Shown here one piece after another: positions 1-21,460 of a DNA stretch of 21,460 bases. This DNA comes from Prototheca cutis. Its lineage: Eukaryota > Chlorophyta > Trebouxiophyceae > Chlorellales > Chlorellaceae. Each line of letters opens with the position of its first letter. Position 1 is the stretch's first letter. The position numbers were made by a program, and so were the translations under genes. Under the pieces are notes generated by a model, which did not search any database, was not told the DNA's origin, and worked only from the letters and a program-made list of their open reading frames with translations. The stretch spans positions 1,003,726 through 1,025,185 of the forward strand of contig BCIH01000009.1 in assembly GCA_002897115.2 (NCBI GenBank), given 5' to 3'.

Positions 1-2
1 CT

Positions 3-1088
3 GGCGATGGCGGGGACAACAGCAATGACAACGAGGACGGCGGCGGCAGCACCCGCGCCGCGCGAGTCGAGGCAGAGGGAGCGACCGGCTCCCGCGTGGT
101 TCGTGGCAGGGCCGCCAGCATTGCTGCTGGCACCGCCGCTAGCGCGGAGTCGGACGGCATTGACCCCCCTCAGCAGGACCGCGCNGGCGCGCAGCAGCCG
201 GCCGCANGACGCAGAGTCGTGAAGCGCCGAGGCCTCGAGGGCCTGCGCTACGTCGATGACCTCAGCCCCGAGGAGCTAGAGCNGCTCGGCAAGTGTGTGT
301 TCATCGACCCCGGCCGGGGGGACTTGATGTACTGCATGCACGAGGACTCGAGCCACGAGAAGGGACGCCGCCTGACCATGCGGATCAGCAGCAGGGAGTG
401 GGCGTTCCTCACACGGTCGCGCAAGTTCCGGAGGCTGCTCCGGAGGCTCATGACCAAGGGCGTGCGCAAGGCCCAGCAGCGCCTGGCAACTGAGGCACCC
501 AACGGGGCCAGGGCCTGCACTGTGGCAGACTTCTTGGCGTACCTGCGTGTGTTCGGCCAAGTCGAGGCGACGCTCAGCAAGCACTATGCCAAGCCCATCT
601 TCCGGAAGCTCCGTCTTTGGACGTACATTTACCGGCAAAAGGCCTACGCGGCGGTCATCGCGCGCCTGCGCAAGTTCGCGAACGGCGCGACGCTGGTCGT
701 CGGCGACTGCTCGCCGGGCCCGGCACGCTACCACGAGCCGATGCCACACGTCGGGCTGCTGCGGGCGCTGGTCAAGGCGGGGTTCAGCGTCGTGCTCATC
801 GACGAGTTCCGCACCTCCAAGCGCTGCCCGGCCTGCGAACACGAGGAGTGCACGGTGGAGACGTTCCTCCGCGTGCCCAACCCACGCCCGTACCGCAGGG
901 AGCAGACGCCCGAGGTGGTGTGCCACGGGCTGCTGCGCTGCACCAACGAGAAGTGCCGGCCCCCGAACGGCGAGCATCGTCTCTGGAACAGAGACTTGAT
1001 GGCGTGTCTGAACATGAGGCACATCGTGGAGCACCTGCGGAAGACCGGCAAGCGGCCGGAGCGCTTCCAGCGCCCAGCGCCGCAGTAA
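3..1088 (+). CDS. TnpB/Fanzor-type RuvC nuclease, 5' partial
   Basis: The frame is open from the left edge, so the N-terminus lies outside the window; 361 codons are visible. After an acidic, low-complexity start comes a C-terminal TnpB-like nuclease core. The RuvC-I Asp is in FIDPGRGD (visible residue 102). A basic helical stretch holds RRLLRRLMTKG and RKLRLWTYIYRQK. RuvC-II is in VVGDCSPG (234-239). DEFRTSKRCPAC (267-278) follows, and a second Cys pair in LRCTNEKC (313/318) completes a four-Cys zinc ribbon. RuvC-III is in WNRDLMACLNM, with Asp 331. The order RuvC-I, RuvC-II, zinc finger, NRD motif is diagnostic of IS605/IS607 OrfB (TnpB) and its eukaryotic relatives, the Fanzors, which are RNA-guided DNA nucleases. 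In a nuclear algal setting Fanzor is the better name, although a TnpB-like gene from a giant virus is possible. No intron is seen. Three N bases (185, 207, 283) make three residues unknown. No partner transposase is in the window. The family call is firm; activity is inferred. Confidence 0.82.
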   Translation, partial: GDGGDNSNDNEDGGGSTRAARVEAEGATGSRVVRGRAASIAAGTAASAESDGIDPPQQDRXGAQQPAAXRRVVKRRGLEGLRYVDDLSPEELEXLGKCVFIDPGRGDLMYCMHEDSSHEKGRRLTMRISSREWAFLTRSRKFRRLLRRLMTKGVRKAQQRLATEAPNGARACTVADFLAYLRVFGQVEATLSKHYAKPIFRKLRLWTYIYRQKAYAAVIARLRKFANGATLVVGDCSPGPARYHEPMPHVGLLRALVKAGFSVVLIDEFRTSKRCPACEHEECTVETFLRVPNPRPYRREQTPEVVCHGLLRCTNEKCRPPNGEHRLWNRDLMACLNMRHIVEHLRKTGKRPERFQRPAPQ

Positions 1089-1097
1089 AATCCATCC

Positions 1098-1282
1098 TGG
1101 GAGGTTATAGCCTTCCAATGGGGGTGGGAACTCCCGGGGCTCCTTCCCTTCCCCGGAAAGGGAAAGCAGCCCCGGGGGTCGAAACCCTGGGGGCTCCCTT
1201 CCCGGGCCAAGGAGCCCAGAGCTCCTTGGCCCGGGAAGGGAAAACAGTCCCGGAGGTGGTCCATCATGGGGATGGTCCACCT
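1098..1282 (+). ncRNA. Four consecutive hairpins 3' of the nuclease (candidate guide-RNA scaffold or element end)
   Basis: Ten bases after the stop codon a run of stem-loops begins. (1) 1098-1104 pairs with 1111-1117, 7 bp with one G-U pair. (2) 1133-1141 pairs perfectly with 1168-1176, enclosing a second imperfect stem at about 1144-1164. (3) 1195-1215 pairs perfectly with 1221-1241, a 21-bp stem with a 5-nt loop. (4) 1254-1265 pairs with 1271-1282, 12 bp with one mismatch and a 5-nt loop. In TnpB and Fanzor loci the guide RNA (omega RNA) typically comes from the 3' end of the ORF and the element's right end, so this placement fits. The RNA role is inferred. The structures could instead be transposon end repeats or a transcription terminator. 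Confidence 0.45.
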
Positions 1283-1288
1283 TCCTAT

Positions 1289-1964
1289 TGCCATGCAGAG
1301 AAAATTTTCGGCCAGTGATGCCCAGCAACCTCCGGGGTGATGTGACGCTGTTGCTGCCTGAGCTGGTTGCATTATTTTTGCCCTGCATGGTACAGTCCTT
1401 GCCGGGATGGGATGGTCAAGGAAGCAAGGGAGGGACGTGGTGCTTGGCCCTCTGTCATCTAATGGTCCTTTGGGTATGAGGGGCGCCCACGGCAGCAGGT
1501 GTCCTTTGTTCCATCCCGCAGAAAAGGGGGCTTGAGGCTTCCGAAGGATACGATGGTTGGGAAAGAATAAATACGCTGGGATAGGGAACCGATCACCGGT
1601 TCATTCATCCTGGCAGCTGGTTGGGTGCATTTGAGGTCCAGGGTTGCCCTTGTGGTCGGCGATGCCCCCGCTGAAAAATAGTACGACTTGTCAAGCAAGA
1701 GAAGCAGCTGGGAAGAAGCTTGAAACGAGAACAATAATAGAAAGGGTGCTCAGGAAAATTTCATAGACTCACCTGGCCAATGGCCAAGGAGAAAGAGGAC
1801 GATGGTATCTTGCGAAACTATTTCTGAGTGTGAATGGTGGGTGGGAGGGTGATCTGGGACGTCCTATCCCTTTGGGCAGAGCCAGCCTGCTGGCCGGCCA
1901 GTGCCCCGCGCCAATGCTGGTGCCCACAAAGGAAATCCGGTGCCGGGCACCATCATAGCGCAGG
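1289..1964. other. Intergenic stretch between convergent genes
   Basis: This lies between the structured tail of the nuclease gene and the stop codon of the SAND-domain gene. It should hold the right end of any mobile element and the 3' untranslated region of the SAND gene. It is less GC-rich than the flanking coding DNA, with several T- and A-runs. No conserved protein, RNA gene or clear terminal inverted repeat was seen. An antisense ORF at 1459-1734 has no recognisable motif. Confidence 0.5.
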
Positions 1965-4450
1965 TTAGGGCCGTGTGCGTGGACCCTGCGTGCTGCCACG
2001 GGGGGTTGCATCGGCACCACCGGTCCCAGAGTTCTTCCTGCCTGGGCTGAGGCTGGTCTCGGGGGAGCTGGCCCCGGCCATGGTCACCCGTTTCGGCATC
2101 GGCTCAAACACGCTCTGCACAAGTTGCGTGTTTGTGTGGGGGACGGAGCGTATGGTATAGTGGGCCAATGAGGATGATTGCTGGAGTGGTGAACGACCGG
2201 CATGTGTGGAAACCGTTTGCTCCCCGCTGCTTCCCGCAACATGGACAGTCCCGGGTGCTGCTGGCGCCTGGTGGATGCCCCACACGAACAAACCCTTGTT
2301 GTTACCCATCGGTGCGCCCCACCCCACTCCAATCCCCTCCGCACGCACCCCGGAGCGTTTGAGTGGTGTGGCGGGCGGGTCCCGCTCCGGCTCTCGGCGC
2401 TGCGGCATTGCAGGTGGCTCCTCCTCTGCGCCGCCGCTGCGGCCCTTGACGAGCTCGCGCAGGGTCTGAACTTCCTTGCTCAGGTCGAGGTTGCTGGACA
2501 GCAGCACTCTCACAATCATCTGCATCTGGCTGCACATGGACTCCAGGCCCTGCAGCCTCGCCTGCAAGGAGATGGGCCGGCATACAAAAATGGTGGCCAA
2601 CGCCACAGTCGTCGTGGTGGGGGGGTCCTACAAATATCTTCTCCCCTCCCAAACCCTGCCAGCAGCATGCCCTGGACTCCCGCCCCAATCCCCAACCCAC
2701 ACATACAAAGAAGAAAGAAAGAAAGAAAGAAAGAGAGCAGCAATACCAAGGGGACGGACCAGGATTGAGGACCAGTCGTTTGGCGCGGGTTGACCAGGCC
2801 CCTGTGTTCGTGGCGATGTGGGGCCCGGCTGTTCTTGAAACCTGCAGAGTGCAGACACAGCGCTGGGCTCTGCCTGCCTCGGTGTCGTGTCGTCCTGTGC
2901 GGTGCCAGCGGGGGACAGGTACCCCAGCAGGCGCAGCAGTGGCTCCTGCATGTCTGCCCCGTGGCCGCCCTCGGCCAGCGGCCTTGCAAAGGGCCGAGCC
3001 TGCTCCGCTTGATCCATGGGGTTTAATCCCGGCAGCGCTTGCGTGCCGGAACCAGGGCCGCGCTGGGGCTCGAGACCGCCCTCCACGCTGGCCATGCCCG
3101 GTTGGTTGATGGACCCCCGGTTGGACGACAGGTGCGTGCTGCCCAGACGCAGCGGGGCAGAGCCCAGCACACTCAAAGGGTCACTCAGCCTGCCCTGGGA
3201 CCCCAGCACCTGTGCCCCCTCCCACGCGCTGGCGTCCTGTGCGGTGTGCAGTGTGGGGAGAATGCAGTCGGGCGGGCTGCGCCGAGCTGTGTGGGAACAA
3301 GGTGCGACCGCCATCGCTATCCACCGCACCGTCGCACCTGGCCTCGGGGCAGGAACCGGGAGAGCAGGGTCTCCGACATGGAATTGGACATAGCCCGATC
3401 CAGCAGTAGACCAGCGGGCATGCCGGATGCCTGGAGACGGAACAGCCCGGGACCCAGCGCCATGGAGCCTGTCGCCAGACCCGGCATCGTGCCCGTGGGG
3501 GGTCCAGGCTGCGTCAGTGATGCCAGCGTCTGCAGCGCCCCCCGTATCTGCTCTGCAGGCAATCCCAAGCCTGCGCCCAAGGCCGAGCCCTCACCAGGGT
3601 CCTCTGTGTAGCCTGCGGCGGGTTGGGGGAGAGGCACGGAGTTGCTGAGCGGAAACCCTGTTTGCGCCTCATGGGAATGTGGCCTCCTGCCCATGGTTCC
3701 GTACTCGTGACCCTTTTTTGAACAAGAGAAAAGGCAAGCCCTAGTGCATCCGCGCCCCTCACCGGGCCCATGTGTGGCCGCGGGGCCTGGCATCTTGCGG
3801 CTCAGCCAACGGCCCAGCGTCTCGGACGGCTGGCCCTGATCCAAGATGCGTAGCGTGTCGCGCCACTTCTTGCGGTGCGCCATTCCTGCGGTGCTTCGGT
3901 GGGCGCGCAGGGTGCAGGTCGAGTTGGGTGTCTGTGCGTTTGTGCACATGGGGAGGGGCCTTGCCGGCGCGATTTGACAGGGCTGGCTGCAGCGGCACGA
4001 CCGGAGTCGAAAGTCTAAAACCCCCATCCAACCCTCCTGCCCTCACACTCAAACAAATCAGACACCCTGCCCCTGCGCACCACTGTGTGTCTCAAAGCCA
4101 TTGGGCGTGAAGATGGCGCCGCCTTTGGTGCTGGGCGCCAGTTCTTTTCCTGCGCAGCACCGGCCCAGGCACTGGACGTAGAGCCGCGAGACATCGCCCC
4201 GCTCAACATCCACTCGAGTGCCGAGGTAGATGAGATGACCTGCTCGGGAGGGCGGGGCGGGTCTGGGGGACACAGCGGAGATGACGATTGGAGCTCCAAA
4301 GCGGTCACAGGTTGGGCTGCATTACCGGCCGGCCGAGGCACCTCTCCCCCGTGCCCAGGGGCACCACCTCTCCAACTTACCGCGCTTCTCGCCGCAAAAA
4401 ATTGTGCTCAATGGGGTGTAACCCAAACGCTCAAGCTGCTCCGTCGTCAT
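1965..4450 (-). CDS. SAND-domain protein with C-terminal coiled coil
   Basis: Seven exons join in phase: 4450-4381, 4239-4081, 3885-3763, 3612-3338, 3236-2760, 2561-2349, 2114-1965. They encode 488 aa. The first donor is a perfect GTAAGT; the donor at 2759 (GTCCGT) is weak, but its phase fits. The start is MTTEQLERLGYTPL. Residues about 24-105 form a SAND domain, a chromatin/DNA-binding fold. The strand LYVQCLGRCCAGKEL is followed by FTPNGFETHSG, then across an intron by MAHRKKWRDTLRIL and ETLGRWLSRK. This matches the family pattern of a TP-x-FE-x-H-x-G motif followed by a KxW basic helix. The middle (about 120-368) is Gly/Pro/Ser-rich and probably disordered. Residues about 369-408 (RLQGLESMCSQMQMIV and onwards) look like a coiled coil for self-association. 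The green-algal RegA/VARL regulators also carry a SAND-like fold, but membership of that group cannot be decided here. A nuclear transcription or chromatin role is inferred. Confidence 0.82.
2713..2732 (+). repeat. (GAAA)5 microsatellite in a SAND-gene intron
   Basis: Five GAAA units lie within the 198-bp intron 2562-2759. In the sense of the gene (minus strand) they read as a CTTT tract, a pyrimidine-rich stretch in mid-intron. Confidence 0.9.
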
Positions 4451-6172
4451 GGCCCGTGCTCGGCGCGGGTGACGCCCGGACTCCCCGGCGCGCTCGTGGG
4501 GAGGACACCCGGCAGGGCCCCCTGTACGAGCCAATTCTCCAAACCCCCGACGACGCACAAGGTTCTAATGATGTCCCAATCGCGTAGGGCAACCTTGACC
4601 CCGGCGAGCGGGTGATTCCGTTGAGCCGACGCCCCCCGGCTGCCGCTGTCGGGTGCACGCCCTGAAAAGCGTGAAGTACGGGCAATTGCCGACTGCTGAG
4701 GTATTCCAACAACGTATAATGAATAATACGACCTCCCTCACGACAACACAGGCAGTGTGTGCCCGTGGTAATACAGCAATTCTGATCTGCCTCGTCGCAC
4801 CGGACGTCAGCAAGGGCTCTCACGGCGGGCGGCGTTGTGCCCCTGCAGAGCGACGTGGCTACTTCGAGGTTTGCCCACAACGTCGTCCTAGCCAGGACGT
4901 ACGTTGTTCACCACCACTGCCTTGAACGGACGCGAGTTGAATTAACAGAGACTCGTGCACAATACTCGGAAGACGTGGACGTGCCTGCGATTTGAGTCGT
5001 GTGCACGCACCTTCGTCTGGGTCGAAGCCTTAAGAACCTACCGAGAACCCCCCCGGGGCATTAGACACACCACGCTTTAGCCAAGTACGGAGAGAGCAAT
5101 TCATTATGCATATCAAATGGCCTCCGTCTTCTGGTGAGGCACCGGATTCGTGGTGAACGAGCCCCTGGGTCTCTCTGGAAGGAGGGTTGTAAAGCGCCAC
5201 ACCACACGCATTGAGCTGGGGCCGCGTCATACAAACGTAGCGAGGTTGCATCATTTATCCGTGGAACGCTATGCAGCAAGCGTGACCCAACCCCATACAT
5301 CTTGCCGCCAAGATGCCACCACGTTGCCATGTTGGCCGCCAGAGAGTCAATCCCCCCGGGCCATACCCACCCCCTTCCACTCCGAAACGCATGGAGACAA
5401 TGCATGCGTGCGAGATCAATTGTGCCGTGATTGATCGATGCGCCGCAGAGCAGGGATCCTTGCCCGGTTTGTGTGCGCAGCATCAGTTCAACGAGCAGCT
5501 CGCGGGGCGCATGGCGGATCTCCGCATGGGGCGGGTCCTCCACCGCCGCCGCTCGCATAGCAAGCCATACGTTCACTCGCGGGACGCGCCCATCCGTGGG
5601 GACAATTAGGGAGCAGCCGGCAGTGGGGTTGGCTGGCAGGTTTGGGCATGGTCCTTAGGGTGTTGCCCGCACCTGGGTTTTAGGGCATGCTCTGGAAAGA
5701 GGACAAGGCGTCCCTCGGAACGGTTAGCACCATGGATGAAATTCACGACATTTATATGAACGGTCGCGACGACAGTGGAGCGAGGTGGAAGCTTGTCACG
5801 GGGGACCTCGATGCGGAGCGGCGGACGCGGAACGGGAAGCGGTCCCTTTGGCAGCGAATGATCGCAAGGCCCGGCATGTATGACGCCCGGCCGGGGCGGG
5901 TCCTCGGTATGCCACCCCCCTCCAGCCACGGTTCGGCCTCACAGCGTCTCCCATGCTGCAATGCTCTATTTACATCTAATGCCGCGCACAGTAAATACAA
6001 TGTGGCAAAGGTGGGACGCCACGCTCTGGTCAAGTCGTCTCGCAAGGCGGTGGTCGCCACCGGGGGCTACCACATAACTCCCCGGCGGCATGGCGCAGCT
6101 CGGTCAGCTATGTCCCCGGGCACATGGTGTGTGTGCATGTGTGCACATTGCCATCTTATCTGGGCTCAGGCG
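4451..6172. other. Gene-poor region upstream of the SAND gene
   Basis: About 1.7 kb lie between the start of the SAND gene and the stop codon of the four-helix membrane gene, both on the minus strand. It should contain the SAND gene promoter and the 3' UTR of the membrane-protein gene. Base composition is more even than in the coding regions, most clearly around 4650-5300. Several ORFs of 70-170 codons occur on both strands, but none has a recognisable motif, a convincing splice partner or coding-like composition. No tRNA, rRNA, transposon end or tandem array was seen. Confidence 0.5.
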
Positions 6173-6946
6173 TCAGATCACGGCCGAGGGAATGGATGGC
6201 TTTGGCGGCGCAATGGGTTGCGGGCCAATCATCTCCTTCTCCTCGTACATGCAGGTGCAGAGCATGAGCACCATGCTGCAAGGGAGCAGGGCGTGGCCGT
6301 GCATGAAGGGACTGCCATGTGGCGTGCGATTTCGTATATGCGTCATCCCGCAGCCCGAGCCGCCACTGACGACAAGCAACACTCTCCCTCTTCCCGTGGG
6401 GGCCCCCCATCAACGTACTTGGCGATGCTGGCGATGACGGCTCCCGCAACCACCGCACGCGTCGTGCTGTGGTTGTGGACCGGGATATTGTTGTAATACA
6501 GGTACGTGTTTGCTGTGTCCATGGTCAGCACAGTGAGCACGGTGAGGTAGCCCATCAACGCGGTCTTCCACCTGTCCATGCCCGCGACGAAGCCGTAGTT
6601 GAGCGCCACCAGGACTGCCAGCTGGAACCACACCTGGGGGGTGTTGGGGTGGGGGACACCTCGGCGGTGGGTGTGTAGGGAAGCGGAAGCTGGCTCGGCC
6701 AAAGCCAAGGGCTCGCGCTGTGCAGCCAGCTAGGCACGCCCAAAAACCACAGGCACGGGGGCTCACAATCCACCACGTGTAGCCAAATATGGTGCTGCAG
6801 GGCGCGGGGCCAAGGTAGCCCGCCTCACCCCCCAGGTCAAGCGAGTCGGCGCCACACCGAACTTGGACGCTGGCGATGCCCGCCATCATGATCAGCCATC
6901 CCAGGTACCCCAGGGCTAGGCTGCCGTACGCGAAAACAAGATCCAT
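6173..6946 (-). CDS. Small four-helix integral membrane protein, function unknown
   Basis: Three exons, 6946-6767, 6633-6419 and 6275-6173, encode 165 aa. The first intron is phase 0 (donor GTGAGC). The second is phase 2 (donor GTACGT, acceptor CCCTTGCAG). Four hydrophobic segments are clear: LALGYLGWLIMMAGIASVQV (about 10-29), WWIVWFQLAVLVALNYGF (about 58-75), ALMGYLTVLTVLTMDTAN and AVVAGAVIASIANMVLMLC. The C-terminal tail is short, hydrophilic and Pro-rich (GPQPIAPPKPS). The loop between helices 1 and 2 has two Cys residues and acidic residues. I do not recognise the family; it resembles small tetraspan proteins of algae and stramenopiles only in layout. It is divergent from the lipase gene, 504 bp away, so the two may share control sequences. 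The gene model is well supported by phase and hydrophobicity. Confidence 0.72.
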
Positions 6947-7450
6947 TCCAGCAACGTGTGCAGATGCGGTGACCGGAGCCCTCAGGGCATGTCTCAGGCG
7001 GAGTGCAGGATGCTCGCTGGCAGGTACATGTGGGCCCTGGCCCGGCCGGGAGGCGCGCGGGGTCTGCCTCGAAGCCTCACTTAAAAAGCGCTTCTGTTAA
7101 AGCAATCATGTGTTTGCTCTTTCCTGTGCGCGAAAGCGTATCGTCGTCCTGACCTGCCTCACGGCAACGCAGCGTGTAGCCAGGGGTGGTCCGATAAAAC
7201 TCTGACTCCAGGGGGATTAGTGTCTCTGCCCGCATCCGGTCGGGGGAGATGGAAGCCCATGGGTGGAATCTCCCCCCCGTTGTACTACTGCACCGCACCA
7301 ATGGGCCCATTCGAAGATGTGCATGCTGAAAGCGCAGGTTATTGCGCCACCGGTCGAGAATCCTGCCCCTTCTGGCAAGGCAGGATGGCGCCTGTGCCGG
7401 GGGGCATTCGGACGCGGTAGGGGTGCACGCCCAGCAGGCTCGGTCTAGCC
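6947..7450. promoter_or_regulatory. Divergent intergenic region, membrane protein / diacylglycerol lipase
   Basis: The two start codons face away from each other across 504 bp, so both promoters and 5' UTRs should lie here. An A-rich TTAAAAA stretch occurs near 7080, about 370 bp before the lipase start. I cannot assign any promoter motif with confidence. Confidence 0.4.
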
Positions 7451-8528
7451 ATGCCAGAGCTCCGGCTTTTCCGAAGGCGATGGCACATCGCCTCGGGTGA
7501 GTGTTCGGGGATTTAGAACGTTTGCGGCTCGCCCAGCGAACGATGCGCTGTTCCCGCAGCCAGGCGCTCTCCAGACCTGTCCAGCGGCCCATGGTCTTGA
7601 GCACGTCCGAAACACCTGTTCCTTGTGCGCAGACACATTTCCCTTGGTGTCTGGGGCGCTTGCGGCAATCCACTTTGGAGTTGCAATCCCCTTCATCTCT
7701 GGCAAGTGCATTGCCTTTTGTTGGGGTAGGGTACCCATGTTTTTCATGGGCGGGCATGCCATGCGGGCGGTTGCTGGTTGGTGTCCCTGCTCCCACCGGT
7801 AATGGTGTCTGGACGATGGCACTGGAATGCCTCCATAGACCTGGCATCCCCTGCACGTTGTGCAGGTGCATACAGCATTGAGAGCACGGGCATCAGGTTC
7901 AACTGCGAGGTTGGCACGGCAGTCAGAGTCGCCGTGTACGGAATGTTTGGGCTGCTGCTGCTGCTCAGCATCGTCGAGTGCTCCATCTCCAGCGTGGGGC
8001 TCAAGGGTGCGCCTCCTGGGAAAGATGGGGGGGGGGGCGATGGACACGACGACTGTGACTTTCTTTGGGAGGCTGAGACATGTGTATGCCTTTAAGGTCT
8101 GGGCTGGGCGCGAAGGGATGGAGGAACGGGCAAACCCCAGCTAACCCAGCACATGTTTGTTCTAGGGGGCCAGAACCGCAGTGGCCACGCAGCAGGAAGA
8201 CCCGATGCTCAGCCCACGTGCGCACTTACAAATCGTGCAGGCGGCCCGCTGGAGACGCGGAAGCGACGGGCCATGATTCCGCTGCTGTATGCCGAAATCA
8301 TGCTGTGGGTGCTGCTCCTCGCCTGGACAAGTGCGCATGGCGTGGCAGGGATGCTTTGTTGACGGGTTTTTCAGATGAGGTGGGGGTTTTCAGGATGCCC
8401 GACGGGCTTGGTTGCGGGCAAGACGGTGGAGCTTCTGCAGCCCTGCATCCCCTGCCTGGGCATGAGAGGTCCCCGGCATGCCGACACTGGCCCACTACGG
8501 AGTAAGCATGCCCACGACGCAATATCCC

Positions 8529-8559
<31 letters not shown>

Positions 8560-11500
8560 ACAGTCTTCTCGACATACATGGTCTACTCGCCGAGTGTCAA
8601 TGGAGAGTGCTGGAACGACAACCCCTGCGCATACAGTCTCGACCTCCCCGCCGTCTGTGTAGGGCCCAAGGATGCCAATGGTGTGTGTCTGTGTGTCTGT
8701 GTGGTAGTGGTGATAATGATGGGGTCCAAGGGGAGCCCCTTATTCCGCACTGCTGCTGGGGGCTCACAACCCTGCTCCGCCAGGCTGCTGGTGATGCCCC
8801 AACCTCGATGTCATTCCCTGGCATTCTTCGCCCCCGGCACCTGCAGGGATCAGCACACTGTCACCATCATGCGAGACAATATACCAGAACAGTGGCGGAT
8901 GGACGTGCGTGTGTGAGCGTGTTTTCGTGTGGATGGGGGAGAGGATGGGACACTGGGAGTTTGAACAGGGCAAGGCCACAACGTCCACGCGTATGCCGTG
9001 GCTCTAGTCAAGGTGACGTAGGGCCACCCTTGCTCTTTCCCTCCACACTGCGCAGGAACTGCATGGTTCAGTGGTTGTCATATGGTTCGTCGGTGTATGT
9101 GTACCACACCTACACCGACATGAATGTGTCGAGTTGGACGTGCGCCGAGCCCCTTCCCGACTGGACCAACGTCAAACCCTGGATCATCAGGAACTACCTC
9201 GATGGCACGCCGGGGTGGTCAGGGGTGTGGTTTTACAGGGACCGTCGAGAACTTGGTCTTGGGTGGGGCCCGGGCTGTTGTTATCCGTCGCCCCCCCCGG
9301 CCGGATGTTGTCTGTCGTCCCCTTGCTGGATATGGTGCGGCGCCCTTGATCTGACGCTGTCCAGTGCAGCGGTGGCCATGCCCCCCGGATTCCTCGCTCC
9401 TCTGTGTTTCCTTCCGCTCTATCAACCGACCCTTGCCCACCCACCCAATAAAACAAACAGGTAATGCCACGCTGTACGCCGAGATCACAGCCAAGGCGCC
9501 GATCGACCCCGTCGAGCTGCAGGACATCAACCTAATGCTGGGGGCTGGGGAAGGCAGCCAGAGTGCGGTGGACGAGTTCAACAAATTTGTCAAAAACCTA
9601 ACTCACCTGTCCGAGGACATCGAGGCCTCGTTCCTCGATGTCGCCGGCATCCCCTACGACCCAGCGGACCCGGGGCGCAGCGTGCCTTGGTTTGAGTGCA
9701 TGGACGAGGACTGCCAGGACCTGATACGGTGAGCCCTTGGCTGGGGTGGGGTGGGTTGAGGAATGGGTCGGGGAGGGGGGTGAGTGGAGGGGCAGGAGGG
9801 GAGGGGAACAAGAATTTGCATCCCACCCACCCACCAACCGACAATTCCAGGGCCACATCAGCCTTGACTCGGGCGGCTGCCGGTCCAGCTGCACCAAGAC
9901 ACCCACCCGTCTCCCCCAACGCAGCGAGGGTGACAACTGCTCGCAGTGGGACATCCTGCTGACGCTTCCGATGCCCGCGAATCGTCGGGCTTACTTCCTC
10001 GGTCTTGTCTGGACAAGCTGGGGCCTCATCATCTTTGAAGTGTGCGTGGGTGGAGTGGGGTTACAGGGGGGAGGGTGTCATCTGGCACGACCCCATTGGG
10101 GTTTGTTGGTGGGCGTCGCGCAGCGTCCATGGCTGCGCTGCACTCCCCAGCTGGCCAAGGCCATCGAACCATGGTTGATCCACCTCCCCCTTCTGCAGGG
10201 CGCTGGTGCTGATCGTGTTCAACTCGTTTCCAGACTACACCGAGGTGGACAGCTGGGAGGGCAACCTGCAGTGCTGGGGCAAGCTGTGCTGCTGCGGATC
10301 ACTGCTGGACAGCACCCTGGAGGACACGAGGTGTGTGGGTGTGTGGTGGGGGGGGGTGGGGGTGCTCGTGTAAGGTGGTGCTGCAAACATGCCGCTCAAT
10401 GGCCCAAGATGGCGGGCCGGGAAGGCGTCACGAGAGGCCTCATATTGAGCTGGCTCCAGTCATTCGGACAGGCTGCCACGAATGGCAGACAGTGGCAGCA
10501 CCGAGAAATGGGATTGTCTTCAACACCACCGTAAGATCCTGGCCCATCAACTCCATGGCCATGCAGCGAACGAGCGTCGCGTGAGATTGCCAAGAATCTG
10601 AGCCTTCTGTTTGGCGGGATCGACCTCGACCCCACAGACCGCCTGTTTGCGGCGCTCCTCTTTTCAGAGCACCAGAGCGAGCTGCGCGAGGGCAGCCTCA
10701 GGATGGCGCTGCGCGAAGCGGGTGCACACATGGAAATTCGAGTCGTCGTTTGTGTGCTTTTTTTTGGTCGATAGCAGGGGCGTTGAGTTTGGGATTGGCC
10801 AGGGGTACAGCGGACACCCCGCACGGGGTATGCTGATGATGCCAGGTGCCTGGCAGCTCATAGCTGCACGCTGCTTGCTCGTACCCGCAGGCTACGTTGC
10901 GGCGCCGCCGCCCCACAGCGCGTACATCAATGGTCACAAGCGGCGGGACGGGGGGTACATGCTCGGCACGGGCGAGCCGCCGGCGGCCGCGGCGGTGGCG
11001 GTGGGCGCCGGCGAGGACGGCGCGGTGCCCGTGTATAGGAGGACGTTTTTGCACCTGGCAGAGGGCAAGCCTATCGGGCCTGAGGCCAACAGCCCCGACG
11101 ACGCCCCGCTCTGGACGCCGGAACTCGGGGTGGAGACTCGGTTTGTGCCCATCCTCATCCCGCCGCGGCTGCCACGGACGTACGAGGACAGCATCTCCGT
11201 CGAGGACGCCGCGCGCCTCTGCTGCGGTGAGAAATCTGGCCATGTTTGTGTGTGATGGGTATGCATGGGGTTGTTTGTCCCTGGGCAGCCTGAACTCAGT
11301 GGCTTTGTGAAATGAAGGAAACTGTCACTGTGCTCAGTTTGGGCCCCTCGGAACGGCACGTTCCCAGTCGCCGGTCGGCGTGTGCGCACTCTCTTTGGGT
11401 GGTGCCGCCAGGAACACTCACCCAGAGAGGGACCCGTGCGTTGCCGCAGGTGAGCGCAGGCCTGTTGATGCCGGCAAAGTCCGCATGGCGCGGCACATGG

Positions 11501-14500
11501 CGCGGTTTGCCATTGCGTCATACGGCCTGCAGAGCGTGATCTGGGCAGAGGGAAAGTGAGTCCAGGATGTTTTGGGGGATTTTTTTTTTTGGATGAGGTG
11601 GGGACATGTACTCGCAAAAGTGAAAGGCGTGCGGGCAGCAGAAGCAGCCCCAAAAGGCTGGGGTTCAAGGGAAATGTGATGGGGTCAGCGGCGCCACACC
11701 TCACACACCCACTCCAACGCCCCAGGAGGCCGGCGGCTTGCGCGGGGAACATCAAGCTGGTGACCAAGTTGTACAGGGGCCTGTTCCGGCAGCGGGACTG
11801 GTTCCGACGACGGAACCAGGCTGCCATCCTCAGAGTCACGGGTGCGTGGGTGTGTGTGTCTGTGTGCAGGGTGTTTGAGGGTGTTTGGGGGGAGGTCTAT
11901 TTGGGGGCGTGTTGGTGGGAGGGAGGGAACCATGCGGGTCGTCAGCGCGGCTGACCGACTGCATGCTTGTTGTTCGTGCTGACTGCTGTTGATGAGGCAG
12001 TTTTCTGAGTGGTGGAATCACCAACAGAATTTCAGGCCCTGTATCGCCGCCGTGGCCAGCACACCGAGCTCATCAGAGACCCATCGTCGCCTCATGCAGG
12101 GTGCAAGCCAGAGGACTTGCTCTTCGTGTCATGTACGTGGCGGGGCAGTGGACCCATTGCCATGTCCAGTGTGGTCATGACATGCCATGTCTGAATCAGG
12201 AGGCTGGGTGCCGGGCCTGGCCTGGCCGCACTGCCGGTAGTCACACATGGGCGAGCCTCTCAACAGCCCTCCCTTTTTCTCACCTGGCATGCAGACGCCA
12301 ACGTCGCCGGCGGCGTGGTGCCATACCTCATAGCCTGGGAGCGCGAGACAGAGTCCCTCATTATCAGCATTCGCGGCACGGGTACGGGTTTGGCAGAGGG
12401 AATGTGGGCCAAGTGCTACAAGGGGAGCACACGTCATTGGACCATGGGGTTGGAAGCTGGTCGGTAGGCCTGGACTGCGCTGCATTGCTGGCGCCCTGAC
12501 GTCATCTCAAATCCACGCCCCGACCAGTCCCTGGGTCCCCTGCCCATCCGGCTCTTGCAGTCAGCATGGCGGATCTCATCACAGATCTCCTGAGCATGCC
12601 CGTCGACGTCTCGGAATGGATGCCACCATGGGTGCACGAGGTGCGTGGATAGGCAAGCAGGAGTGGACGCTGTTTTGCCGGCCGGCATGTTGCAGCGACC
12701 AGTGCGGGAGTCGTCGGCCCCCTGTGCCTAGGCCGCTCATTGGACCATAATGCCCCTCCTGCTTGAACGATGCAATGCACATGTGCTGCATCGTTATCCT
12801 GGGCAGTTGAAATCGCGATTTTGAAAACCTGCGCTCACCCAAACATGGCGCAGCACGTCCATGAGGCGGGTGGGGGACACATGTACGCGCATGCCGGCGT
12901 GGTGTCTGCTGCGACGGCTATCCTGCAGGACATGGAGACCAAGGGCATCCTCAAGGTGCGTCGGTGGATGGGAGAAAGGGGCAATCGGTGGCATGGGCAG
13001 GGCCATGGGCCAGGTGGGTGCTGGTGGTGGTGCTCCCCAGTCAGCAGTCTTGCATGGCAGGCCGGCACACACATCCAACACGCCATCTCCCCCTCCCCAC
13101 CCCCCTGCAGCTGCTGCTCCTCCGGGAGCAGCGCCAAGCGGTGATGGCCAGGATGTCTGTGCAGCCGGGCGGCATGGGTGTCCCACTCGCGGCCATGCAC
13201 CGCGGCGACGAAGTCGACCCCCTCACGTTGGATGGCGCTGGGCACCAGCCCCAAGGCGCGTTTTTGTTGGGGCGTGTGCGTGTGTGTGTCTGTTGCTCGG
13301 CAAAGCGTCCAGAGGAGAGGAGGTGAGAGATGAAGCTGGGGCCCCGCACATGGCCCACCAACCATGGCGAGCCTGGTATGCATGATCGGTGACCGAGCAG
13401 GCTGCCTATGCCCGAAGAATGAGTGAACGAAATTGTATGCATCGACCCTCTCGATCCTGCAGGGGCCAACCAGGTGCAGGATGGAGGGTACACGAGCACT
13501 GAGCGGTTCCGCAAGCTGCTCGACGCTCTGCGGGGCCGAGACAAGCAGCTCGTGCTGACCGGCCATTCCCTGGGCGCCGCCATCGCGTGCATGCTTTCCT
13601 TCCAGCTGCGCGAGGAGTGCCTAGGTGTGTGTGCTTGTGTGTGTGTGTTTTTTTGAACTGCATCGGTCGGACGAGTGGGATGCGAGCTTGCATTTAAGAG
13701 GGCAGGGCCTGCAAGGAAGGGATCAGTGCCACTGATGCAGCATGTGCGCTCGCATTGCTGATAGAATATCACCGAGCGCACTGGTTTCTCGTCGCCTCAT
13801 ACCCTTGCAGACCTCACATGCTGGGCGTTCTGTCCCCCCGGGGGTCTGGCGAGTTGGAGCCTTGTCCGCGCGTCACGTGAATTCTGCACGTCGGTGGTCG
13901 TGGGCAAGGACGTCATCAGCCGCCTGTCATTTAACACCCTGCAGCGTGCTGTGGACGAGATGATGGTCTGCCTGGCCAGGTGTGTTGGGTTGAAAGAAGG
14001 TCCTGGCATTGCTCCATGGCCAGCCTGCTCCCCCGCCCGGCACGCCTCGCTGCCCAGCCGTGGAGGCGGGGTCACCTCGTTCCGAATGTTAGGGACTCGA
14101 CAACCCCTGGCCCCGTGCCGCACACCCAGCTCACAGAGAAAACCCGTCCACCCCGTTGGATGTCACAGATGCCGCCGGCCCAAGCTCCTGGTGCTTGCTG
14201 ACGTTTTGCTCGGGCGGCGGCGGGATGGCCGCATGCCACCGCCGACGCTGTGTGACGTGGAACAGATCCCAAAGGAGAACTATTCGCGGCTCAGAAGGTG
14301 TTCTTATAGAGCAATTTATTGTGTGTGTGTTGTGTGTGTGTGTGTGTACACGCCGGTGGAGGCTTGGCATAGTGCCTGTGGCGCCTTTGATTGGCAAAGC
14401 GCACCAATGCCCCAATCCCCCACAGGTACTTTGTCGCTTCAAGGGCGCAGGTGCACCTGCAGCCTGAGCTGTATCCTCCGGGAGACATCATGTTCCTGCG

Positions 14501-14826
14501 ACCCCTGACGGGGCGGTCAACGAGTTGGGACGCCGTGCACATCAACGGTGCAGGTATGTTAGTTGTTGTGTGCTGGAAGGGAGGGGGGGCTGTGCCGAGA
14601 ACTGGGCTGAGGAGGCACAGCTTGGGCCTGTACTGCCACACATCTTCCCAGCCCAAGGCTGCATTGATTCCCACACTTTCTTTCTTTCCTGGCAGAGCTC
14701 ATTGGCGAGGGCATCCAGTTGACGCCCTCCATGCTTGTTCATCACCGACTGTACAACTTGGTGGAGGCGCTGGAGGCCTGCAACACTGAAGCATTGCTTG
14801 ACGAAGAATCCTGCAATCCCTGCTGA
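7451..14826 (+). CDS. DAGL: sn-1-specific diacylglycerol lipase (class 3 lipase), multi-exon
   Basis: The enzyme releases the sn-1 fatty acid of diacylglycerol to give 2-monoacylglycerol. About 24 exons: 7451-7496, 7633-7725, 7866-8006, 8241-8330, 8564-8680, 8847-8904, 9056 to about 9204 (3' end unresolved), 9461-9728, 9925-10041, 10199-10330, 10567-10721, 10891-11226, 11450-11555, 11726-11841, 12028-12132, 12295-12381, 12561-12640, 12854-12955, 13111-13273, 13463-13624, 13811-13979, 14169-14297, 14426-14553, 14696-14826. They give about 1060-1075 aa and all junctions but one agree in phase. The N-terminus MPELRLFRRRWHIAS resembles animal DAGLs. Four membrane helices follow: exon 2, exon 3 (VYGMFGLLLLLSIVE), exon 4 (LWVLLLAWT) and exons 9-10. 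The lipase domain has IISIRGTVSMADLITDLL. The nucleophile is in TGHSLGAA (Ser codon 13567-13569), the Asp is in VVGKDVISRL (13909-13911), and the His is in the HH pair at 14740-14745. Neighbours suggest no pathway. Confidence 0.93.
8526..8562 (+). repeat. Poly-C tract and (CA)n repeat at a splice acceptor
   Basis: Twenty C residues (8526-8545) run into a CA dinucleotide repeat that ends directly in the CAG acceptor of lipase exon 5 at 8563. The repeat serves as the polypyrimidine tract of the intron, so length variation could affect splicing. Confidence 0.85.
14321..14347 (+). repeat. (GT)n microsatellite in a lipase intron
   Basis: A GT repeat interrupted once lies 24 nt into the intron 14298-14425. 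It is the longest example of the TG-rich 5' intron segments that recur throughout this gene. Confidence 0.85.
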
Positions 14827-15469
14827 GAGCTGTGCTATTGCACCGCCGGGCATGGGGCCACTGCCCGACCGGTGTCTGTATGGCAGGCATGCATGCATGC
14901 ATGCGTGCGTGCTAGAGCCCGCGAAAGCTGGACTACATTGCTGAAAACCCGTGATTTTTAATCTGCAAATGAACCATTGCTGCACAGGGTGCACAGGCAT
15001 GCTGCACACCACATTTTGGGTGGTGGTGGCGTGGGTGCACCTGATCGTTCTGGGGCATCCCTAAGGCTGGCCCAGCAGCGCCGCTGCGTGGCGCACGGAC
15101 CGCGGGCAGCGCACAGTGACGGCGGAGCCTCACCTGATTCCCATCTGCATGAAGACGGGGCACATCTCGTGGACAGAAGACGCTGTGTGCATGATGGGGT
15201 GCGATGGTCCAGCACAGCACAGTGAGAGGGAAGGTCAACGAGCTGGCAAGGCTGAACCTCAGCCGACAGTCATCACGTAATCCAGCCCGCGTCCCACGGA
15301 ATGACCCACCCGAATCGTCTTCCCTGCTGCTCGTTGTCCATTCTCCGCTAGGTCTTGAGCTTGGAATGTTTTGGTATAGTGCAGGGTCGCGCCGTCAGGT
15401 TCCCACTTGCTCCTGACACGCAGCGCAGGGTCGCGGCATTGGGGGGCCAGATCGCCGCCTCATCGTGCA
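14827..15469. other. Intergenic region between lipase and nitrilase genes
   Basis: This holds the lipase 3' UTR and the nitrilase promoter and 5' UTR. A short tandem run of GCAT units changing to GCGT units sits at 14887-14910. ORFs on both strands at about 14930-15240 lack recognisable domains. A minus-strand piece near 15145-15205 ends in a plausible GTGAGG donor, but I find no partner exon. Confidence 0.45.
14887..14910 (+). repeat. Short GCAT/GCGT tandem repeat
   Basis: Four GCAT units are followed by two GCGT units in the 3' flank of the lipase gene. The GCAT part is self-complementary. Confidence 0.85.
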
Positions 15470-16390
15470 ATGGTGCGCTCGACGGTTGCCGCTTTGCAGA
15501 TCGGCGCCTCCCCCCAGGGGGCGGCGGCGACCCTGGAGCTGATCCTGTCTTTCGAAGGCCAGATCAAGGATTCTGGGGCCAGCCTGGTGGTGATGCCCGA
15601 GGCGGTGCTGGGTGGCTATCCCAAGGGTGAGACCTTTGGCACCTACCTGGGCTACCGCATGCCCGAGGGCCGCGAGGCCTTTGCCCGCTACTACGGCAAC
15701 TCCATCGACGTGCCGGGCCCCGAGACGGACGAGCTGGCGGGCCTGGCCCAGCGCACCGGGGCGTACCTGGTGGTTGGGGTCATCGAGCGCGCCGGCAACA
15801 CGCTGTACTGCGCCGCGCTGTTCTTCTCGCCCTCCGAGGGCCTGGTGGCCAAGCACCGCAAGCTGATGCCGACGGGGACGGAGCGCTTGATCTGGGGCCA
15901 GGGCGACGGGTCCACGCTCCCGACTGTGGAGACGCCGGCGGGCCGTGTCGGCGCGGCCATCTGCTGGGAGAACCACATGCCCCTGCTGCGCACGGCCATG
16001 TACGCCAAGGGCGTCCAGGTGTGGTGCGCACCCACGGTGGACGAGCGCGACGTGTGGCAGGCATCCATGCGCCACATCGCGCACGAGGGGCGCATGTTCG
16101 TGGTCAGCGCCTGCCAGGTGCAGCCCTCGCCTGCGGAGCTTGGCGTCGAGGTGCCGCACTGGGACGCGGCGCGACCCCTCATCCGAGGCAACAGCGTCAT
16201 CGTGGGGCCACTGGGCGACGTGCTAGCGGGGCCGCTGGTCAATGAGATCGGCCTGCTCACCGCCACCATCGAGACCGACGACATCGCTCGCGCGCGCTAT
16301 GACTTTGACCCAGTCGGGCACTATGCACGGCCAGACGTATTTTCCCTGTCGGTCGACGAGCGTGCTAAGTACACCGTGAAATTTTGCTAG
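15470..16390 (+). CDS. Nitrilase, intronless, bacterial type
   Basis: This 306-aa protein belongs to the nitrilase branch of the carbon-nitrogen hydrolase superfamily, which hydrolyses a nitrile to the carboxylic acid and ammonia. The catalytic triad is visible: Glu44 in [14 protein letters not shown], Lys131 in [14 protein letters not shown] and Cys165 in [14 protein letters not shown]. Other family signatures are [32 protein letters not shown] and the C-terminal [15 protein letters not shown]. The length is full for the family. The frame is open upstream to 15407, but the ATG at 15470 ([12 protein letters not shown]) matches the usual family start. No intron interrupts it, unlike the lipase gene next door, and the sequence reads like a proteobacterial nitrilase, which suggests transfer from bacteria. 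No targeting peptide is evident, so the product is probably cytosolic. The substrate cannot be read from sequence. Confidence 0.96.
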
Positions 16391-16699
16391 GCCTTGGAGG
16401 ATGGGGTTGCCATAATTGCCACTGGCACTAGGAGCAGAGATGGCGGTGGCAGCAGAGAAGATGGCGGCTATACGGTCGCTACCACTGCGGCCGCTGTCGT
16501 CAACCCCACTGCTCTCACTGCCGCCAGCCCCATCACTGCCATCACCGCCGCCACCCTCGTCTGCACTACCATCCCGATGCGATGATGTGCTACACCCATA
16601 CTGCTCTTCTTGTATCATTCGTGGCATTATCATCCATGCCATGCACGTGTACAAACGACCTCCTGTGGCCATGGCATGACTTCCTGGCATGCTCTTCTA

Positions 16700-16704
16700 T
16701 GTAA
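16700..16704 (+). promoter_or_regulatory. Candidate TGTAA polyadenylation signal for the nitrilase gene
   Basis: TGTAA is the common near-upstream poly(A) element in chlorophytes. This copy is on the correct strand about 310 nt downstream of the nitrilase stop. A pentamer occurs often by chance, so the call is weak. Confidence 0.25.
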
Positions 16705-17416
16705 TGTCATTGTTTACTGGAGCTATTGCTGGCCAGGTGATGGCCATGGCCCCTTGTCCCCTACAGAAGACTCTTGGGTGACAGATCTGGGTTACTGCGG
16801 GCTTTTCATATAGAGCCTGATAAACAGCGAGGTATCCTGAGCATGGCACTCCAAAAGCATTGTTCAGGATATGCTTTGCCACGCCCAACGAGTGCAGCTC
16901 GCTCATGTACGACCTCATCACCGTGGCCCAGATGCTGCTGGCCCACGACGTCACGTGCCTCACAGTCCTTCGCTGTCGCGCACGACTGGGGCGCGCCGGG
17001 CGCGCGCCGGGACAGCGTCGGGTGGTGGCCACCACCGACTGCAACGCCGTCCTGCGCGCCCGGGTCGACGTGACGAGGGCGTGGGCGGTGGCAAGGTCAT
17101 CGCGGCAGAGATCGTTGTGACGGGGATGATGGTGACGGCGGCGGTTGAGGAGTCGGAGGAGGTGGTGGCGGTGGAACCGCGGAATGAGGCCCATCTCTGC
17201 AGCGGTCGCTCCGCCTGGCGGACCTCGCCTCCTCACGCCGCGACAGGGTGCGTGGGCGGTGGCACGTGCGCGGGCGGGGCAGTGGGACATGAGGCTACAC
17301 CTCCCATGCTTGCTTACTTGTTTGTGGAATGCCGTCGCGGGCGGGCACAGTCACCCTCATGCCCTCACCCACGCGTGCACGAGCGCGTCTGATCGCCCGG
17401 CCGGCACCGCACCGGG

Positions 17417-17472
17417 CCCCCCCCCCCCCCCCCCCCCCGCCCCCCCCCCGCCCCCCCCCCCCCCCCCCCCCC
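17417..17472 (+). repeat. 56-nt poly-C tract interrupted by two G
   Basis: Positions 17417-17472 are C except for G at 17439 and 17450. The complementary strand is poly-G and could form a G-quadruplex. It lies outside any gene I can support. Confidence 0.9.
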
Positions 17473-17749
17473 GGGCAGCTGCCCGGAGTGCCGTCGATCG
17501 CGACTGCCGCATATCAGGACGTCCTGCACAGGGTGTGCTTGCGACCTCCCTGTGCGACCCGGTGTTTTGTCCACCGTGTCTGCCGCCGTGCCGGTCGCCC
17601 CCATGCCCGATGCGGACGACAGCCGCCATGCACTGCTTGCCCCTATGATGTGCAGCACACGCCGCTGTTTGCCCTGGTCGCGCCTGCCGTCGGAGGCCGG
17701 TGCGGGCATCCCAAGTGAGCGGCCCTGGGGGAGGGGAGAGATCGAGGGG

Positions 17750-18532
17750 TCTGCGCCTGGGGCAGCGGGGGTTGCGCGCAGAGCTGGCTGCCCCGGCCGC
17801 CGCCGCCCGCCGGTGGTCCACCACCATCCCTGTTCCTCTGTCCAGAGCTGTGACACCTTGTGGATCCAGTCTGGAAGCAGGGAAGCAGGGCCTGGGCATG
17901 TGTGACGTAGCCAGGCAGCTCCGCCACGGGGCAGCCACGCAGGTTGAGCTGGTTGATGGAGGTGGTGTCACGCAGGGGCTCCAGAGCATGCAGTGTGGCA
18001 ATGGGATTGGACCTTGCTTCCAGAATCCGGACCGAAAGCAGCTTGGCCAGGCTGCTCAGCAGCCGCTGCAACTTGTGAGTTACTCGCAGCGCTCGCAGCT
18101 TGGTCAGCGCGCGGGGGACGCAGAGACAGGCACACCAAGAAAACCCCCATACTCGCATCATCCAGCCATCCACACACGTGCGTCAGGCCTGTACCCAGGT
18201 CGGAGATGGCATTGTGGGAAAATTGCAGCTTCTCCAGTGACTGGCACCCCACCAGCCAGGAGGGGCGAACCGCCACAGCGTTGTGGGACAGGATCAGGGT
18301 GTTCAGCTCCCGGCGGCGCGTCAGGCCCCTACCAGCATTATGCCATTGTCGTTGGCAGTGGGGGCATTGAGATCGGGCAGGTACCCCACCGCCAGCTCAC
18401 CATGCAGCGCGTTCCGAGCCAGGTTGAGCACCTCGAGAGAGTCGCAGCCGCGCAGCACGTCAATGCTGTCAACCTGGTTTCCACCTGGTTGCCAGCCAGG
18501 GAAATCCAGCGCAGAGATGTGGGTGGGTGGGT

Positions 18533-18580
<48 letters not shown>

Positions 18581-18860
18581 AAGCCATCTACCTTGCCTAG
18601 GGTAGTTGTGGCTGGCATCCACGCGCATCCGGGAACGGCACACGGGCCCGGCGGCCTGCATGGTCGATGCCGGGCCTATGAGGGCCCCATTGGAAATAAT
18701 ACTGTTCCATCGTCTGCATGTGCCTGCATTGTGGCCCGCTCCCACACCAGCACCACCGCAATACCGTGGTGATGCCTCGCCCTGCCTCCAGCCGCTGTAC
18801 CGCCGCAAGATCGGTGTCCGAGTGCAGCTCCCGCACCAGGGCCGGCGTGAGCTTGGCCAT
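17750..18860 (-). CDS. Leucine-rich-repeat protein gene, reading frame broken (possible pseudogene)
   Basis: The start is MAKLTPALVRELHSDTDLAA (exon 18860-18765, phase 0). Exon 18655-18592 follows with RVDASHNY and ends at a GTAGAT donor. LRR-type units continue downstream: VLRGCDSLEVLNLARNAL (from 18473), YLPDLNAPTANDNGIML, LNTLILSHNAVAV, LEKLQFSHNAISDL, then after a 79-bp intron (18099-18177) LNLRGCPVAELPGY and LDPQGVTALDRGTG. This resembles SDS22-like LRR proteins, which bind other proteins. The units do not stay in one frame. There is an 11-bp tandem duplication at about 18472-18490, a one-base shift near 18321-18330 and another near 17870. The intron at 18474-18591 carries 46 G's (plus strand). 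Several LRR consensus leucines are also replaced. Either the gene is decaying or the draft sequence has indels here. The 3' end is not resolved. Confidence 0.55.
18533..18578 (+). repeat. 46-nt poly-G homopolymer preceded by GGGT units
   Basis: Three GGGT units (18521-18532) lead into 46 consecutive G residues. On the coding strand of the LRR gene this is poly-C inside an intron, just before the acceptor side. The G-rich strand meets the pattern for G-quadruplex formation. Such a run is also prone to sequencing and assembly error. Confidence 0.9.
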
Positions 18861-19092
18861 GGTGGGCTAGACAACAAATAAACTAATTCATGCAGAATGC
18901 GGCCATGCGACTACCTTCAGAGCGGCATCATGCGTCCAACATGACTGCGTTGCCGACAATGTACCTCATGCCGGGTCATGGAGGGCCAGCGCTCTACGTG
19001 CGAGCTTACGACATGCACGCACCAGGGCAGCATAAACCGTGCGTTGCGTCTCTTGAACAGAACACATTTCTAATTGCAAAATACATTCCCAA
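18861..19092. promoter_or_regulatory. Short divergent intergenic region, LRR gene / aminotransferase-fold gene
   Basis: Only 232 bp separate the two divergent start codons, so control elements for both genes probably overlap. The segment is AT-richer than its flanks (around 18870-18890 and 19050-19095). No specific motif is assigned. Confidence 0.4.
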
Positions 19093-20635: not shown

Positions 20636-21460
20636 GCGGCCAGATCACTCAGCGTTGTTGTTGCACCCGCAACCCGGACTCCCTCCAATCCCTGCACTCC
20701 ACCAAGCTTCCAGTCATCCAAGGGCCCCCTTCCGGCCTGACATGTTTCCTAGATACCTTCCCTGCACCCGGATTCCCTGTCCACCACAGCTTCTACCGAA
20801 GTTTCTGCTCTAGCTGTGCTCCCGCGGTCCACACTCTAACTACCCCCTGGCAATACATAACCCATGCCCCCAGCCGTATACGGAGGGGGAGATCATTCTA
20901 CAATGCATGCTTTGTATCCTGCGTAACAAGCTCCCAGCCCAGCGAGTGCACAACAGTTGTGCTGTGGCCACAGTGCTCGGTGGCGGCAGGTGCACACTTG
21001 CTTCCTGAGCGACTTGATGCCGTTGTGATACAGCCAGGCCCTCGCTGGTTTCAGCGCAGTGCTGGGCGGGCTTCTCTCAGTCATACGCAGTGGCAGTGCG
21101 GTGCTGGTGGCGCAGCAGGCAGCGGTGACCCGGCCCCACTGGGATCGCCACNATCGTCGCCGACATAGGTCGGGGCGCTTCTGCACTGCAGAGCCCACCA
21201 CATGCACTATTCGCAGNAGACTCATGTTTGTTGTGCGCTCTGCACCGATGCGCATGGGCATGTGGCATGAGCTGCGTTGGGCCATGAGGTGCATGTGCGC
21301 ATGCCGGCCTGGCAACCTGCATGCAGTCCGGTTCATGCGGTGCTGATTGCAACTTGGCTTGGCTCCCGATGGACCGGTCCTCCCGACCACCAATGCGTGT
21401 AAACATCGACGATACAAGCAATTTGGACAAAGCGGTCCATCAGACGCAAGCTGCCAGACG
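20636..21460. other. 3' flank with no assigned gene
   Basis: This begins with the 3' UTR of the aminotransferase-fold gene, which is C- and T-rich to about 20870. A minus-strand ORF at 20893-21417 (174 codons, two N bases) has no recognisable motif and biased, Arg/His/Cys-rich content typical of chance ORFs. TGTAA occurs at 21397-21401, too far away to assign to a gene. N bases are at 21152 and 21217. Confidence 0.45.

Follow-up and report, generated by a model that had tools for sequence, protein, structure and literature searches.

A Fanzor1 gene fragment in a many-copy mobile element family with gene-less members in a trebouxiophyte alga

The Fanzor1 frame, its kin and its host

The stretch of DNA analysed here, 21,460 nucleotides in length and called the window below, is situated at the end of contig 9 in an assembly of 19.9 Mb and 23 contigs. 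The forward-strand frame at positions 3 to 1088, which a first-pass annotation had read as free of stops over 361 codons and proposed as a candidate nuclease of the Fanzor/TnpB family, is open and ends in TAA, and homology confirms that it encodes the C-terminal 361 residues of a Fanzor1 protein. The same annotation had placed the N-terminus outside the window; it is absent from the window, but it is not merely outside, since at least 9,726 Ns stand to the left in its place. The suggested leftward extension of the contig was carried out and met these Ns, leaving the front of the window copy unreadable. The REC and WED domains are likewise absent from the window, whose front side is the gap. 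Other copies in the genome have long upstream frames (748 and 708 codons when N codons are skipped), and inspection by eye picked out a WED-like motif.

The window contains 55 stop-to-stop frames of at least 150 amino acids, including one of 379 amino acids antisense to the Fanzor frame, and because such a GC-rich window is rich in long frames, open length is weak evidence for a gene. The frame is therefore taken as real from its homology to PpFz1 and SpuFz1 and not from its length. Among PDB chains, the best phmmer match for the window protein was PpFz1 of Parasitella parasitica (PDB 9cf0; E 1.7e-47), by sequence its nearest solved relative, followed by SpuFz1 of Spizellomyces punctatus (E 4.4e-26), to which it is related at a distance; matches at E ≤ 1 were exclusively these two proteins, both Fanzor1. 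A Pfam search gave a match to PF07282 (TNB domain) under its cut-off. The closest sequences found by phmmer in the PDB are Fanzor1 proteins, which places the predicted nuclease in the Fanzor1 type.

The RuvC-I Asp, RuvC-II region, four-Cys zinc ribbon and RuvC-III motif had been read by the first-pass annotation in that order, and each was recovered at an aligned and conserved position (Table 1). The catalytic triad of SpuFz1 is D383/E541/D606 (PMC10432273), and in the SpuFz1 row of the alignment the triad spacings are 158 and 223, equal to 541-383 and 606-383. Across the 17 aligned sequences E268 and C278 show no change at all, and at least 90 % of the sequences share D102, C275, C313, C318 and D331. 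The motif described as common to all Fanzor and TnpB proteins, D-X(125,275)-[TS]-[TS]-X-X-C4 finger-X(5,50)-RD (PMC3627910), is found in the window protein as D102, T271-S272, C275/278/313/318 and R330-D331, with 168 residues between D and TS and 11 between the last Cys and RD.

Table 1 Coordinates of features at the left end of the window
Feature	Position	Strand	Remark
Fanzor1 gene, C-terminal 361 codons with TAA stop	3..1088	+	N-terminus in assembly gap to left
Rear part of low-complexity WED-RuvC linker, residues 1-77	3..233	+	
RuvC-I catalytic Asp, D102	306..308	+	Aligned to SpuFz1 D383
RuvC-II catalytic Glu, E268	804..806	+	Aligned to SpuFz1 E541
Four-Cys zinc ribbon	825..956	+	C275 825-827, C278 834-836, C313 939-941, C318 954-956
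RuvC-III catalytic Asp, D331, in WNRD	993..995	+	Aligned to SpuFz1 D606
Structured 3' region, stop codon to right terminus, holding putative omega-RNA	1089..1390	+	Fold z -8.0
Right end kept in 13/13 short gene-less copies; candidate omega-RNA scaffold	1255..1390	+	136 nt here, 146 in C7 copy
Right terminal inverted repeat	1369..1390	+	
TA at right junction, target-site duplication	1391..1392		TA at 91/98 right and 66/73 left ends
Predicted guide of window copy, if omega-RNA runs past right end	1393..1408	+	By analogy with SpuFz1 (PMC10432273)

The linker between the WED and RuvC domains, of which the window holds the rear part, is extended. From the WED-side motif to RuvC-I there are 189 residues in another copy of the genome, C7. 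Four relatives were compared: three have 40-44 residues in this interval, and in the remaining one the motif was not recognised. The approximately 150 extra residues are glycine-rich and often RGG-rich: RG pairs number 6-12 in each of four subfamily-1 copies, and there are 10 in P0002, a 647-aa protein from an ENA contig that shares 73 % identity across the 372 residues searched and has a similar linker, but around which no element ends were readable. The stretch may have an RNA-binding role. One subfamily-2 copy has an alanine- and aspartate-rich linker with 0 RG pairs. PpFz1 carries an insertion inside RuvC and has the TAM ATN (PMC11423790), whereas the extra stretch here lies between WED and RuvC. 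The variation is near a loop that structures of Fz1 proteins have tied to contact with TAM-adjacent DNA (PMC11423790).

In a tree of 27 C-terminal sequences, the window copy grouped with copies C7 and C20 (100/99) and then with P0002 (95/89). Subfamily 2 joined next, with 100/99 for all six, and the wider neighbours were zygomycete-fungal and other relatives (midpoint root, no named Fanzor2 or TnpB). Three subfamily-2 copies are clustered on contig 4 at 1,444,075-1,451,520 (L040, L041), two with long frames and the third broken by Ns, and have a different 3' region. An inverted-repeat search recognised no terminal inverted repeats around the subfamily-2 copies, and the cluster is possibly immobile or domesticated.

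The green-algal origin given by the first-pass annotation is supported: the host is a trebouxiophyte near Prototheca and Auxenochlorella, and an exon of a plastid-type HSP70 shares 88 % identity with proteins from both Prototheca wickerhamii and Auxenochlorella protothecoides. For Prototheca cutis, a size of 20.0 Mb and 61.3 % GC are tabulated (PMC12633428 Table 1). The host is most likely a colourless alga that has seemingly lost photosynthesis, because a search of the genome for chlorophyll a/b-binding proteins, whose control gave matches in one of 14 genomes, Synechococcus, yielded none. Further along the window, an uninterrupted nitrilase (CN_hydrolase) frame at 15464-16387 (+) shares up to 85 % identity with its closest matches; among the top 120 of these every named source is bacterial, and the frame is likely a bacterial gene transfer or contamination. 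A class-V aminotransferase frame (Pfam E 3.6e-36) lies near it at 19152-20252 (+).

Copies, ends and gene-less relatives

The Fanzor element extends beyond the stop codon as far as 1390, its right terminus, next to which TA stands at 1391-1392; no left terminus was found inside the window by a pattern search allowing up to 3 mismatches. The first-pass annotation had recommended looking for other copies, and searching the genome with the Fanzor protein gave at least 116 matches. Among the matches listed, five copies including that of the window cover at least 360 of the 361 residues at 92-100 % identity, two subfamily-2 copies cover 353-357 residues at 60-61 % identity, and 18 of the 116 span at least 200 residues. 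The terminus patterns, again at up to 3 mismatches, were found genome-wide at 287 right ends and 96 left ends, and reversed-pattern controls for both termini gave 0 matches. The left-end count of 96 is an underestimate, as the pattern misses variants (ACGGCAG or similar, in 6 of 17 left ends read), and the right-end total is inflated by foldbacks bearing two right ends each; for these reasons the excess of 287 to 96 was not taken as one-ended movement.

The ends are inverted repeats, the left being CMRTGCAGGGCAAAAATGATG or a variant and the right finishing in TTATTTTTGCCCTGCAYGG, and the C7 copy (L034) measures approximately 3.4 kb from end to end. TA adjoins ends of both kinds (Table 1) and is present on both sides in 27 of the 32 elements with both ends in hand. 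The right junction is CA, not TA, in C7 and in C20 (L032), both of which have long open Fanzor frames. At locus L007 a second, gene-less element of the family (approximately 3165-3792) lies about 440 bp past the right end of the copy. The number of copies, the inverted repeats and the TA junctions settle the alternative of mobile element or domesticated gene left by the first-pass annotation in favour of the former: the window Fanzor is part of a mobile element and not a lone domesticated gene.

Many members of the family lack the gene and are referred to here as ghosts. Twenty such stretches were read, picked from closely spaced pairs of terminus hits, so that their shares are not genome-wide frequencies: 13 are elements of approximately 360 bp in which a left end of about 200 bp is followed by a right end of 146 bp (C7 numbering), three are of approximately 600 bp and retain a piece of the coding tail, and four (L099-L102) are foldbacks of approximately 100 bp that carry two right ends but lack a left one. 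The foldbacks keep the terminus and just part of the longer right end.

Constraint, a proposed right-end RNA and a predicted target motif

The Fanzor coding copies are under purifying selection. The dN/dS ratios of the window copy against the four other full-stretch copies were 0.245, 0.397, 0.084 and 0.391, and pooling the 45 pairs that ten copies form, shorter ones among them, gave a pN/pS of 0.44. Copies were further divided into two lineages by the sequence of the stop-codon junction, normal TAA or altered, in an alignment of 44 rows in which L001 was the reference, 19 + 15 copies were used and nine were dropped for a short tail or unclear junction (L063, L064, L065, L066, L067, L068, L069, L076 and L080). 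Differences from the window copy at the three codon positions were 36:17:80 in the normal-TAA lineage (n = 19) and 128:106:91 in the altered-junction lineage (n = 15), these cell counts not being independent of each other. In pairwise comparison, divergence in the coding tail was 4.8 % within the normal lineage (20 copies), and in the former coding tail of the altered lineage (15 copies) it was 14.8 %; for the last 146 columns (window 1245-1390) the two lineages gave 5.6 % and 7.5 %, respectively. From the two values of the altered lineage it follows that the right end was still constrained after the protein had been released.

The stop-junction classes were used to repeat a count made on classes picked by eye (41 rows, L001 as reference, 19 + 13 used; the eight copies L064-L070 and L076 left out), because those had been set after viewing the divergences and favoured the constraint reading. 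With the by-eye classes, the codon-position contrast between coding copies and ghosts was lost (p 0.47) when each variable column was counted once, and in the ghosts 94 of 201 columns of the tail were variable versus 50 of the last 146 (p 0.02).

None of 100 shuffles was as stable as the predicted RNA fold of the 302 nt after the stop codon (Table 1). Among 36 aligned copies, 98.6 % of pair cells remain paired, which is no better than shuffles, and covariation was not above shuffles either, with 3 of 81 pairs changed on both sides. At gathering scores no Rfam family matched the window. Within this region the conserved right end of approximately 140 nt (window 1255-1390) is likely the best candidate for an omega-RNA scaffold, because the short ghosts retain it and drop the hairpins upstream. 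Omega-RNAs of Fz1 systems are given as 75, 90 and 150 nt (PMC11423790); the scaffold of SpuFz1 has 75 nt and comes from the right end of its element (PMC10432273), whereas the structured 3' region here has about 300 nt and its right-end omega-RNA is a predicted one. By the same parallel, the guide of the window copy would start at 1393.

The flanks suggest a target motif. In a non-random sample of flank loci gathered for several purposes, TG directly preceded TA at 35 of 66 left ends versus 26 of 91 right ends read as reverse complement (p 0.003); the background was 86 of 670 TA sites in window 2001-21460 on both strands, and the right ends too lay above it (p 6e-5). Within the same 27 elements TG was found on the left only in 14 and on the right only in three (sign test p 0.013). 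The right-end excess over background is what would arise if the joining enzyme favoured certain targets. Such a preference should be symmetrical, and the left surplus was for that reason read as a contribution of the Fanzor TAM. SpuFz1 offers a parallel, in which a conserved CA precedes the left repeat and the TAM is CATA (PMC10432273); from this and the left-flank surplus the TAM of the present Fanzor is predicted to be TGTA.

Competing explanations and meaning

The reading preferred here, to which a probability of about 0.7 is given, is that window 1-1392 holds the right-hand portion of a Fanzor1-coding DNA transposon with short inverted repeats and a TA target duplication, for which an RNA-guided mode of maintenance is proposed. 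An omega-RNA from the right end would extend into the flank, its first approximately 15 nt becoming the guide; the loaded Fanzor would cut unoccupied sites bearing TGTA and a match to the guide, on the sister chromatid or the homologue after excision; and the occupied copy would template the repair, by which the element would be kept or multiplied. The coding copies may serve the ghosts in trans. The slower change of the right end, the stable RNA fold, the purifying selection on the frame and the TG bias of the left flank were counted for this reading. Counted against it were the lack of covariation beyond shuffles in the proposed RNA, the codon-position contrast that vanished once columns were counted singly, and the weaker TG preference at right ends. 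A transposase could also by itself account for the constraint on the right end.

That objection belongs to an account in which the Fanzor is a passenger of an ordinary TA-duplicating cut-and-paste family, with ends constrained by a lost or unrecognised transposase and with ghosts that are MITEs lacking any guide-RNA function. Inverted repeats with TA junctions are what it expects, the four foldbacks that keep the terminus and only part of the longer right end suit it, and so does the lack of covariation in the 3' RNA. It sits less well with slow change on the right side reaching well past the 20-nt repeat, with a left-flank TG bias exceeding that of the right flank and with a Fanzor frame under purifying selection. 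TA duplication and inverted repeats, as in Tc1/mariner elements, are both present, but DDE_3 (PF13358), a DDE transposase domain, was not detected in the genome by a search whose control gave matches in three of 14 genomes. Searches for DDE_1, Plavaka and Transposase_1 (including PF03184 and PF01359, none in the genome) had silent controls and are hence uninformative. On balance we regard the passenger account as unlikely, though the most serious of the competitors.

Two further explanations were judged very improbable. A Helitron2-like element, as CRe-1 of Chlamydomonas, or an IS607-like element of the Fanzor2 kind would recall the outnumbering of left by right ends, CRe-1 having an excess of 3' ends (PMC3627910), but the left count is low partly from variant ends that the pattern missed, and each terminus bears an inverted repeat and adjoins TA. 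Helitron2 was rejected on these ends, which stand in place of asymmetric hairpin ends, and Fanzor2/IS607 on the inverted repeats and on the serine recombinase (PF00239), not found in the genome by a search whose control gave matches in 10 of 14 genomes. Domestication as a host Fanzor gene, to which hardly any credence is given, could draw on the three subfamily-2 copies within 8 kb on contig 4, where terminal inverted repeats were not recognised; it was rejected for the window copy, which belongs to a many-copy family, ends at a right terminus with TA and groups with C7 and C20.

Among known systems, the RNA-guided transposon reading finds a close likeness in Spu-1, which likewise has a Fanzor1 between inverted repeats, ghosts and a conserved dinucleotide before the left repeat. 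For Spu-1, genes are reported at 42 loci, full at 19 of them and partial at the others, next to 134 ghosts (PMC10432273). No transposase was found between its repeats according to Saito et al. (PMC10432273). The TAM of SpuFz1 differs from the TGTA predicted here (CATA; PMC10432273). The CRe-1/2/3 elements of Chlamydomonas are, as here, green-algal Fanzor1 elements with an excess of 3' ends, but they have Helitron2-type ends (PMC3627910), in place of the terminal inverted repeats and TA found in this family. In Auxenochlorella UTEX 250-A, a related trebouxiophyte, the most abundant repeat is an uncharacterised element that encodes a Fanzor (PMC12633428); the likeness noted is one of host kinship, abundance and encoded protein, and the present host differs from it in seeming colourless. 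The first-pass annotation's expectation of a new member was fair in respect of this family, less so in that a Fanzor element was already known from Auxenochlorella (PMC12633428). No description of the family's ends, ghosts or TA junction came up in a search of the open PMC literature on Fanzors. Fanzor elements as such being known, what is new here is the ends of the family, its gene-less copies and its likely target signature.

These results bear on the question of what Fanzors do for their elements. A green alga here shows the ghost pattern reported for a chytrid, and a compact genome with constrained coding copies, ghosts, a TA junction and a left TGTA bias constitutes a ready statistical system. 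The predicted motif and guide are open to direct testing, and Auxenochlorella can be altered by homologous recombination (PMC12633428). A fuller version, which we hold to be improbable as it stands, is that a Fanzor with an RGG-rich, RNA-binding linker serves a few hundred transposase-less elements in trans, each with its own guide, by RNA-guided homing to TGTA. If true, the family would persist through RNA-guided homing into empty sites and not through a resident transposase.
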